NCBI GenBank assembly: GCA_004028775.1
Contig: RXGA01000001.1
Location: 248,001 to 312,000 of the forward strand
DNA: 64,000 nucleotides
From: Candidatus Methanosuratincola subterraneus
GTDB lineage: Archaea > Thermoproteota > Methanomethylicia > Methanomethylicales > Methanomethylicaceae
Direction: 5' to 3'
The notes beneath the pieces were generated by a model. It was given only the letters and a program-made list of their open reading frames with translations. It searched no databases and was not told the origin of the DNA. Made by a program: the position numbers and the translations under genes. Positions 43,838 through 59,304 of this stretch are shown piece after piece. Each line of letters starts with the position of its first letter. The first letter of the stretch is position 1.

Positions 43838-44405
43838 TTACGCCCCTCCTCTTGAGGGCCAAAACTACAAGATAACCCATGAGTGCCCCGGGGATGCTGC
43901 TCATCAGGAAAAAGATTGTGAACAGCTGCCACTGGGCAGTCAGCCCGAGAAATGGGGGCAACTGGGCTGCACCAATGGCTGGCGCAACCAGGAACGCACT
44001 CAGCAAAGCCCCGATCGCCGTACCCAACGGCTCTGTGAGGGCGACCGCGTCTTTCCTAACTAAATAATTGTAAACCAAACCGACCACCAATGCGCCTGGG
44101 ATCCCGCCTGGCAAGGCGAAAAAAGTGCCTGTCCCTATGCCTATCCTTATTATGCCGATCAGCCCGGCCACAACGCCCGCGTTCAGCGGACCGAGCAGGA
44201 TCCCCGCGACCACATTTATCATGTGTTGGAAAGGGAAGACCTTTGTTGGCCCCGCTGGGAATGCCCCTGGAAAAATCGATAAAGAAACACCGAGCGCGAC
44301 AAATATTGATGAAAGGACTAACCGGTAAGTTGGAGTTTTTAAATGTATTATTTTCTTATTGCCGTAATTAGGCTCATTCACAAGATTTTGCCTTTTTGAA
44401 TACAA
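43824..44405 (-). CDS. thiW: ThiW-type ECF transporter S component (thiamine precursor uptake)
   Basis: A five- or six-helix membrane protein matching ThiW: FVALGVSLSIFPGAFPAGPT, KVFPFQHMINVVAGILLGP, IRIGIGTGTFFALPGG and the C-terminal FFLMSSIPGALMGYLV. ThiW is predicted to bring in the thiazole moiety or thiamine. It begins just after a TPP riboswitch. The likely start is a TTG at 44405 placed ten bases after the riboswitch sequence GGAGG; a GTG at 44381 is the alternative. No EcfA or EcfT genes are nearby, so shared energising subunits would be elsewhere. Confidence 0.87.
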   Translation of the reverse strand: MYSKRQNLVNEPNYGNKKIIHLKTPTYRLVLSSIFVALGVSLSIFPGAFPAGPTKVFPFQHMINVVAGILLGPLNAGVVAGLIGIIRIGIGTGTFFALPGGIPGALVVGLVYNYLVRKDAVALTEPLGTAIGALLSAFLVAPAIGAAQLPPFLGLTAQWQLFTIFFLMSSIPGALMGYLVVLALKRRGVIEGD

Positions 44406-44408
44406 ACA

Positions 44409-44505
44409 GCATATCCCTCCGCTGGAATTGCCCAGTTCAGGTTCAAAGGGTCGGCGACGGATCCAGTCGCCCTCTCAGCCCCTTTCCAGGAGCTCCCCCT
44501 TTGCA
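44409..44505 (-). ncRNA. TPP (THI-box) riboswitch
   Basis: Reading the minus strand, the conserved THI elements occur in order: a stem AGCTCC/GGGGCT with loop TGGAAA leading into CTGAGAG; a variable stem GGCGAC/GTCGCC; then ACCCTTTGAACCTGA; then CTGGGCAATTCCAG; and finally CGGAGGGATATG. These match the TPP-sensing pyrimidine and pyrophosphate pockets. The element begins about 25 bases after a TATA sequence (GCTTATAAAC, 44523-44532) and ends directly before thiW. TPP riboswitches are known in only a few archaea, upstream of thiamine-related transporters. Confidence 0.9.
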
Positions 44506-44522
44506 CTCCAAATTTCCCGTAA

Positions 44523-56724: not shown

Positions 56725-57425
56725 CTAAGATTGCTTGGGGCACCTGATGCCAATTATCGTGAGCAGATCATCGTCTTTCAATGAAGGGAATTTTGCGTCT
56801 TCTTGAAGCTGCTCAAGAATAGAGATTTCATCTCTTGCAATCATTTTGACCTTTTCTAGCAGTTTTTGATAATCATCTTGTACAAACAACATGCTCGTGC
56901 CCGTGGGCGAGTATCGAATAGTTGCGCTTCTTGAGGAGATCTTTAAGCTGTCGGTCCTCATATTTTTCGCCCAATGGGTCTCTTAGATCCTTAAGAAGCG
57001 CATATTTCTCTTTGAGCTATCTCCATCCTGCCTTCCTTTATCTTGTCCTTCCATTTGTCCCTGATCTGCACTGGAAGGTTGCATTCATCGATCTTATCCA
57101 GCATTATCCCCAGTTTTCTCAGCTTGTATTCAGCAAGCATCTCAATTGCGCGGTAAAGCCTTGCAACAGCATCGTCGAACTTGCTCTCTTCACCTCTCCG
57201 TTCAGCATTATTCAGCAAATCGGCTATCAGGTACACGTATTTCTCACACTCGCCGCTGTTCCTAAGCCTCTCCAGGAAGCCTCTATTCCTGCATAGCATT
57301 TTGTAGAGATCCGTTTTGCTGAAGCTTTGTTTCAGGCAATCGGCGCTCTTCTTCAGATGCTCGAGCGCATCGTTGTGCATGAATTTGTCCCAGCAGTCAT
57401 AGGCGTTTGCTATATACTTTGTCAT
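56725..57425 (-). pseudogene. Decayed CRISPR-associated HEPN nuclease (Cas02710/Csm6-like)
   Basis: Reading the minus strand with two frame changes gives one continuous protein tail. Frame one starts at 57425 (MTKYIANAYDCWDKFMHNDA, then VARLYRAIEMLAEYKLRKLG) and stops at 56991. Frame two resumes near 57004 with KYALLKDLRDPLGEKYEDRQ and KKRNYSILAHGHEHV. Frame three continues as QDDYQKLLEKVKMIARDEIS and ends at 56725. RNYSILAH is the HEPN RNase motif (R-x6-H). The pattern fits the C-terminal domain of TIGR02710/PF09670 CRISPR ancillary proteins. The N-terminal CARF sensor domain is missing, so the gene is truncated and frameshifted. Confidence 0.72.
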
Positions 57426-57547: not shown

Positions 57548-57988
57548 TCACTTGACTACCATTACGGAAGTCTTGGCGTTTCTCAGCACCCCTTCTGAGG
57601 TGCTCCCCAAAAGGAAGGCCTGCAAGTGTCCCATGCCCCGGCTTCCAAGCACTATTAGGCGGGCATTCATGGATTCGGCGAATTCGCATATCTTTTTAAC
57701 CGGATCGCCGTGCAAAACTTTTGATTCGACCAGGAGTTTGGTATCCGAGAAGTACTTCGTAATCAACGAATTGTGCAGAACCGCATATGAATCGCCTTGA
57801 GCACGGATCTCTTTGCTGTCGACATCGCTCTCGGACATGACCAAGGAAGGCACAGGTATGACACTTATAACATATACGTCGGATGACAGTGAGCGGGCTA
57901 TCTCGGCTGCTTCCCTCATCACAGTTTCTGAAATAGGGGATGCATCGATCGCAACGATTATTCGGTTTGCCTTAGAGCCCATTTTCAT
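57548..57988 (-). CDS. Universal stress protein (UspA family)
   Basis: A 146 aa single-domain Usp with the ATP-binding signature GSRGMGHLQAFLLGSTSEGV and the N-terminal strand IIVAIDASPISETVMREAAE. It lies 91 bp downstream of the antiporter on the same strand and is probably expressed from the same fluoride-controlled transcript. Usp genes have been reported behind fluoride riboswitches in other organisms. The starts at 57988 and 57982 are both possible. Confidence 0.88.
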   Translation of the reverse strand: MKMGSKANRIIVAIDASPISETVMREAAEIARSLSSDVYVISVIPVPSLVMSESDVDSKEIRAQGDSYAVLHNSLITKYFSDTKLLVESKVLHGDPVKKICEFAESMNARLIVLGSRGMGHLQAFLLGSTSEGVLRNAKTSVMVVK

Positions 57989-58079: not shown

Positions 58080-59186
58080 TCATATTTTTTTAGGGATATA
58101 CTTCTTTGCGATAATTGTTGGCACAATCGCGCTCAGGATTACCGAAATTACGATTATCGAAAATTGAGTCCGGTCCAGCAGGCCAAGCTCGAACCCTAGC
58201 GTGGCGGTTATTATCCCGACCGTCAATCCTGTGGAGAACATGAGAGTCGAAAATGCCGCGCCTTCTGGGATCCACTTCTTGCAAAGCAGGTAAGTCCCAG
58301 CGAACTTTGACAAGAGCTTCGCGGCTAAAATTCCCAAAACCAGGGCGATGTTGTTTGCAACCGTTGGCAGGCTTATCAACAGGCCTGCCTTTATGAAAAA
58401 TGCGGGCGACAGCAAGGCGAATGTGATTGTCCTCATCTTGGACCTTATCTCATCGTATTTTTGAATGCTGTTTGCAAAGAGAAACCCAAGCAAAAAGACG
58501 CCGAAAACGGCATGCAGCTTGCCCACATCGGCAATTAGCGCAACGCCCAGGATTAACGCCAAGATTAGCCTCAATTCTATTTCGACAGATCTTCGCCCAT
58601 ATTTGATAAAGACGTATTTCAGCATCCTCGGGATGATTAATATCATTGACAGAATTATTGCGAAGAACAACAGGGTATAGAGATTGAAGGAGGGGCTCAA
58701 GATGTTGATTCCAATAAGCGTCATTATGTCGTTTACAAAAGTGACTGCGATTATTACAGACCCTATCTGCAATTTCAGCAAATCGTATTCGGTCAAGACT
58801 GCATAGACCACAGCCACTGAAGTCGTTGTAAGCGCCAAACTGGCAGCTACTTTGGTTATTAGCGGCCAATCAGTGAATATCGTCAGGAAAAACACAACGC
58901 CCAGCAAAGGCGCTAAGAAAGACATGGTGCCTATGACAAGGCTTGGCTTCAGATTCTTTTTCATCAGCCTCGTCTCGATTTCAGCCCCTGCGAGGAATGT
59001 CAACATGAGCCCCCCGAATGTCCCAAGGAAGTCTAGCCAGCTTTCAATCTGGACGCCCAGAAAATTGCTGAGGATAATCCCAGCTGTTACCTCAAAGATT
59101 GCTGAGGAGACGCGAAACCTGATGCTCAATATTGCTGCAAGCGCTATTGATGTCGAAACTAAAGCCGCGGAGTAGAGATCCACCAT
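58080..59186 (-). CDS. CPA2-type cation/proton antiporter under a fluoride riboswitch
   Basis: A 368 aa membrane protein with about eleven helices, of the KefB/GerN/NapA (CPA2, Na_H_Exchanger) family. Family-like segments are GGLMLTFLAGAEIETRLMKK (helix with acidic residue), ASLALTTTSVAVVYAVL, FVNDIMTLIGINIL, GVFLLGFLFANSI and a C-terminal half without the NAD-binding KTN domain. The fluoride riboswitch in its leader suggests a role in fluoride tolerance, perhaps by pH or ion homeostasis or direct export; direct F- transport is not shown by sequence. Confidence 0.87.
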   Translation of the reverse strand: MVDLYSAALVSTSIALAAILSIRFRVSSAIFEVTAGIILSNFLGVQIESWLDFLGTFGGLMLTFLAGAEIETRLMKKNLKPSLVIGTMSFLAPLLGVVFFLTIFTDWPLITKVAASLALTTTSVAVVYAVLTEYDLLKLQIGSVIIAVTFVNDIMTLIGINILSPSFNLYTLLFFAIILSMILIIPRMLKYVFIKYGRRSVEIELRLILALILGVALIADVGKLHAVFGVFLLGFLFANSIQKYDEIRSKMRTITFALLSPAFFIKAGLLISLPTVANNIALVLGILAAKLLSKFAGTYLLCKKWIPEGAAFSTLMFSTGLTVGIITATLGFELGLLDRTQFSIIVISVILSAIVPTIIAKKYIPKKI

Positions 59187-59199
59187 ATTTATGCCTCTG

Positions 59200-59272
59200 C
59201 AACATTGCTGCAGGCGTCATCAGCCTCAATGAGGCAGTTCAGGCTATGCCTTGGTGGACACCATCACCGGTG
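59200..59272 (-). ncRNA. Fluoride riboswitch (crcB motif)
   Basis: On the minus strand the leader contains, in order, GGTGATGGTGTCCACC, a short spacer, AACTGCCTCATTGAGGC and TGATGACGCCTGC. These are the conserved elements of the fluoride aptamer: the GGnGATGG...UCCnCC stem-loop, the AACxGC stem, and the TGATGACGCCT end that forms the pseudoknot. A second hairpin CTGCAGC/GTTGCAG with loop AAT overlaps the 3' end of the aptamer and abuts AGAGG before the ATG, so control is probably at translation. Transcription should start near 59273. Confidence 0.88.
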
Positions 59273-59290
59273 ATTTTAGAAAAAAATTCG

Positions 59291-59304
59291 CCAAATATTT
59301 AAAC
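59291..59304 (-). promoter_or_regulatory. Box A of the riboswitch-antiporter transcript
   Basis: GTTTAAATATTTGG on the minus strand predicts initiation about 25 bases later, at the 5' edge of the fluoride aptamer. Confidence 0.5.

Follow-up and report, generated by a model that had tools for sequence, protein, structure and literature searches.

The antiporter gene on the minus strand of this archaeal contig is preceded by a short leader that resembles the crcB motif, which raises the question of whether the leader is a genuine fluoride riboswitch and, if so, which genes it controls and at which step of expression. All coordinates below refer to the window, the 64-kb stretch of DNA that was analysed, and its features are collected in Table 1. 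A search with the Rfam 15 covariance model RF01734, proposed as a check of the original prediction, returned an end-to-end match (model positions 1-64) on the minus strand at 59277-59204 with a score of 53.8 bits and an E value of 1e-13, where the gathering score is 34 bits. Every motif on which the prediction was built was recovered on that strand, with GGTGATGGTGTCCACC at 59268-59253, AACTGCC at 59239-59233 and GGCTGATGACGCCTGC at 59225-59210. The fluoride aptamer has been described with the core pairs A6-U38 and A40-U48 (PMC11586693), and the A, U, A and U that form them are all present; the nucleotides that donate phosphates are conserved too. These results confirm that the element is, by identity, a fluoride riboswitch aptamer. 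A match to SNORD46 was below its own cut-off and was treated as chance. Across the window, one other element exceeded its gathering score, a TPP riboswitch (RF00059, 68.8 bits) at 44397-44509 on the minus strand; the gene immediately behind it, at 44405-43824, encodes a small membrane protein resembling ThiW-type thiamine transporters.

Table 1. Features of the antiporter leader and the genes that follow it (window coordinates).
Feature	Position	Strand	Evidence or remark
TATA element TTTAAATA of the leader promoter	59296..59303	-	8/8 match; spacing as in orthologues
Fluoride riboswitch aptamer	59204..59277	-	RF01734 match above gathering score
Aptamer stem P1 (GGUG/CACC) and loop AUGGUGUC with 5' pseudoknot strand GGUGUC (59262-59257)	59253..59268	-	Covariation in 89 archaeal aptamers
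Second aptamer stem GCCUC-AUU-GAGGC	59223..59235	-	Sequence and Rfam alignment
3' pseudoknot strand GACGCC, partner of GGUGUC in the fluoride-bound form	59213..59218	-	6/6 pairs standard
Expression-platform hairpin CUGCAGC-AAU-GUUGCAG	59197..59213	-	Core -8.9 kcal/mol
Shine-Dalgarno GAGG within GAGGCA	59192..59197	-	Complementary to aptamer strand UGCCUC (59236-59231)
Cation/proton antiporter, 368 aa, NapA-like fold	58080..59186	-	PF00999, E 1.5e-42
Universal stress protein (UspA family), 146 aa, probably second gene of the unit	57548..57988	-	PF00582, E 9e-32

The GGUGUC/GACGCC pseudoknot forms six standard pairs out of six at the window locus. Over 89 archaeal aptamers these six pairs were standard in 99-100% of loci, with two-sided changes at five of them, and the pairs of stem P1 also covaried. 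Because the pseudoknot pairs remain standard while varying on both sides, the bound form is well supported. The window RNA would be expected to bind fluoride. A separate group of variant aptamers carries a coupled change of A6-U38 to G-C; a pattern search found them in 9 of 300 genomes (reversed pattern, 0), six before crcB-like genes, two before the antiporter and one before neither. A further aptamer of this kind, in genome G320, precedes a broken antiporter. RF01734 scores these variants low or misses them.

The original prediction also had transcription beginning at the aptamer, and the promoter layout agrees. The TATA element starts 35 nt upstream of the first G in P1, a distance that is identical in the two closest orthologues (G014 and G001), and a TATA-like octamer occurs 28-42 nt upstream of 43% of the 89 Thermoproteota fluoride aptamers compared with 9-10% in control intervals. 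The antiporter start codon lies 17 nt 3' of the aptamer, which places the aptamer in the predicted 5' leader.

Termination control is the subject of most of the fluoride riboswitch mechanism papers that we found, and the best-studied examples, those of Bacillus cereus and T. petrophila, are transcriptional according to published work. Given these precedents, a real riboswitch that acts on transcription, through termination or processivity, was weighed against one that acts on translation. We consider transcriptional control unlikely, as a U-tract terminator is absent (the stretch from aptamer to start codon contains no run of at least six T at any of 88 Thermoproteota loci), the T7 run in the window (within 59289-59278) lies upstream of the aptamer, the leaders are very short, and pairing to the Shine-Dalgarno (SD) sequence is specific to each leader's own partner. 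This last property was measured in 50 dereplicated Thermoproteota loci, where the duplex between pseudoknot strand and SD reached -9.1 kcal/mol with its own partner and -7.4 kcal/mol with swapped partners (permutation p 5e-5), and the own-partner preference appeared again when whole-aptamer strands were paired with the SD in 45 loci (p 1e-4). Many leaders contain a hairpin with the pseudoknot strand as its 5' arm and the SD as its 3' arm, for example GUCUACC...GGUAGAC-AA-AUG. Of the 88 loci, 72 have an SD that matches over at least 4 nt, and the median distance from aptamer to start codon was 20 nt.

At the window locus the expression platform is energetically coupled to the aptamer. At 55 C the SD-AUG region takes 8.0 kcal/mol to open when the RNA is free and 2.2 kcal/mol when the aptamer is formed; this difference of 5.8 compares with a shuffled mean of 0.05 (sd 1.1) and was equalled by 0 of 300 shuffles, the OFF structure being defined here by secondary-structure energies, which cannot represent the pseudoknot itself. 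The lack of a U-tract, the SD matches, the own-partner anti-SD pairing and the opening energies in the window together argue for translational ON control, to the extent that pairing energies predict behaviour in cells. It is therefore likely that, on entry of fluoride into the cell, this RF01734 riboswitch activates translation of the cation/proton antiporter and, probably, of the universal stress protein (Usp) too.

The duplex seen in many Thermoproteota leaders is unexceptional in the window, where pairing between pseudoknot strand and SD ranked 0.37 among swaps, and it was rejected as the sole OFF structure of this leader. Because that duplex alone is average, SD sequestration in the window rests on several weaker pairings together, namely UGCCUC:GAGGCA, CUGCAGC:GUUGCAG and UCCACC:GGUGGA. 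The first uses an aptamer strand that otherwise builds the second aptamer stem. The second is the expression-platform hairpin, which shares C59213 with the pseudoknot strand at its 5' end and overlaps the SD by one base at its 3' end. The third, at the start codon, is kept in G014 and G001; since the G272 group lacks it and the conserved Met-Val-Asp start may by itself account for it, it was set aside as a conserved device and counted as supporting only. In the proposed mechanism, UGCCUC would pair with the SD region GAGGCA when fluoride is absent, with the CUGCAGC/GUUGCAG hairpin beside it and UCCACC on the start-codon region GGUGGA, and these pairings would bury both the SD and the start codon. 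Mg2+-fluoride would then lock the pseudoknot and both stems and free the ribosome-binding site, so that fluoride entry would switch on translation of the antiporter and probably of the Usp.

The protein encoded behind the leader scored 146.3 bits with PF00999 (Na_H_Exchanger; gathering score 26.2). A PDB search identified NapA as its closest solved structure (E 2e-10), and a modestly confident AlphaFold model (mean pLDDT 66, pTM 0.67) aligned with NapA at a Foldseek TM of 0.75. The positions of NapA Asp156 and Lys305 are kept, and Asp155 is replaced by Asn, giving an Asn-Asp rather than an Asp-Asp motif. The protein had been called a CPA2 antiporter; CPA2 does stand as the nearest class, but the score with TIGR00932 was 104 bits against a cut-off of 238.3, so the label denotes nearest class and not formal membership, and the protein is filed under PF00999 only. 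Its role in fluoride stress would most likely be to counter the acid load from HF entry and the cation imbalance, and a role in pH and cation balance is the reading given for the bacterial cases (PMC11139923).

The second gene scored 110.9 bits with PF00582 (gathering score 24) and is separated from the antiporter by 91 nt. Both genes had been named as the regulated ones. For the antiporter this is supported, as a PF00999 exchanger directly follows the riboswitch with the Usp downstream, and the order recurs elsewhere; Usp control is stated with more reserve because the 91-nt gap could hold a weak promoter of its own. The riboswitch might then govern the antiporter only, a reading to which we give some, but not much, credence: weak TATA-like octamers do occur in the gap, the best matching 7/8 at 58054-58047, but none is a full TATA match, and the pair is conserved, its genes overlapping or closely spaced in several bacteria and about 16-98 nt apart in archaea. 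We infer that the Usp is carried on the antiporter transcript and would act as the stress partner of the antiporter. A 144-aa protein lies 3' of the Usp at 56991-57425 on the minus strand; it has a Csm6 HEPN domain match (PF09670, E 2e-16), aligns with just the later part of the TIGR02710 model, and is possibly a remnant of a CRISPR-associated CARF protein.

The association of riboswitch and antiporter was counted among close relatives of the antiporter with a readable leader. A fluoride aptamer precedes the antiporter in all 12 archaeal loci (ten above the Rfam cut-off and two of the variant type) and in nine of the ten bacterial loci. The antiporter is in turn followed by a Usp gene in seven archaeal loci (the window, G272, G207, G349, G401, G425 and G430) and seven bacterial ones. 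The order riboswitch, antiporter, Usp is thus shared with other families of archaea and with bacteria and is no peculiarity of this genome. That the three stay together in two domains suggests that they form a defence module and are not neighbours by chance. In the antiporter tree the archaeal sequences form one clade (support 97/97) that is sister to the bacterial ones, and a recent transfer from bacteria to the window species, considered as an explanation, is unsupported by these separate sister clades. Antiporters and Usp genes had been named as reported partners of this riboswitch, and the literature bears this out: among partner classes, Na+/H+ antiporters rank directly behind exporters in frequency (PMC11139923), and work in Enterobacter has dealt with an operon that contains uspA, has a fluoride riboswitch and is induced by fluoride (PMC5533749). 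On a plasmid of Methylocystis sp. MJC1 (L158) the order is aptamer, antiporter, Usp and crcB, and another fluoride aptamer lies some 2.9 kb beyond.

As originally noted, neither crcB nor a CLC gene adjoins the riboswitch, whose neighbours are the antiporter and the Usp. No CrcB/Fluc (PF02537) was found in the whole 1.51-Mb genome (97% complete) or in 25 relatives. The one CLC (PF00654) is on contig C2, far from the locus, and looks chloride-type by its GSG motif, which we take to be the chloride-type signature. With no recognised exporter and an antiporter so tightly linked to fluoride sensing, the antiporter might itself move fluoride, for example by proton coupling, in place of CrcB or CLC-F. 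We regard this as quite improbable, given that it has the fold and the key residues of a cation/proton antiporter and that the bacterial relative in Methylocystis MJC1 adjoins crcB, which indicates that the antiporter does not simply replace CrcB. A cation/proton antiporter under fluoride control is the reading that we retain.

Among the 22 genomes of the window's family, riboswitch and antiporter co-occur in exactly the same three. That the leader is a decayed, functionless relic is scarcely credible: a distribution of three in 22 is patchy, as a relic might be, but no core position or pair is lost, the promoter sits at its proper distance and the expression platform remains coupled to the aptamer. 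In G004 the model gave a weak score of 26.8 bits, which was not counted as an aptamer because it falls within a coding gene. The genome has a second, weaker fluoride aptamer on contig C6 (41 bits) before a 282-aa protein. The other two genomes of the three carry a divergent, back-to-back pair of aptamers separated by about 100-120 bp; the antiporter lies behind one and a homologue of the 282-aa protein behind the other. This protein type, found behind the second aptamer in all three genomes (L032:4153-5001 on the minus strand, L034:1409-2259 and L033:7964-8345), gave no Pfam hit and possibly has ribbon-helix-helix-like repeats.

Over the phylum, the commonest first gene after a Thermoproteota fluoride aptamer encodes a prenyltransferase-type alpha-alpha toroid protein (PF00432; 29 of 89 hits, at L037:4087-4971, L046:5176-6033, L049:5056-6009 and 26 more), against 21 for CrcB. 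Our literature search returned no paper joining the terms 'fluoride riboswitch' and 'prenyltransferase'.

The aptamer, its partner genes and the translational mode are each already known; the new part is an archaeal module with an anti-SD architecture, compared over a phylum. The literature searched yielded no experimental study of a fluoride riboswitch from archaea, and the window locus together with the 50-leader comparison offers a concrete, testable translational mechanism in archaea. We tentatively suggest that Thermoproteota in general use their fluoride riboswitches as translational ON switches whose aptamer strands double as anti-SD strands, and that, in a lineage without a recognised fluoride exporter, the riboswitch-bound antiporter clade could be the main fluoride defence.

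Compared with the family described by RF01734 (crcB motif), the window element has the same stems, pseudoknot and core nucleotides, matches over full length and occupies the 5' leader of a fluoride-stress gene; it differs in having G at A49 (CCUGC), an archaeal promoter and SD, and a locus-specific expression platform. Translational fluoride riboswitches are known in bacteria from Pseudomonas syringae and Burkholderia pseudomallei (PMC13273304), and the window riboswitch probably resembles them in acting on translation and not termination, whereas its host is archaeal. The antiporter shares its fold and the Asp156 and Lys305 positions with NapA (4BWZ, 5BZ2) but is about 20% identical to it, has Asn at Asp155 and is known here from sequence and a model. 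The closest counterparts of the whole unit are those of Rubrobacter, Klebsiella, Enterobacter, Caulobacter and Methylocystis plasmids and a deltaproteobacterium, which have the same aptamer-antiporter-Usp order and antiporters about 32-39% identical; the bacterial units often add mutS or crcB, whereas the archaeal antiporters form a clade of their own.
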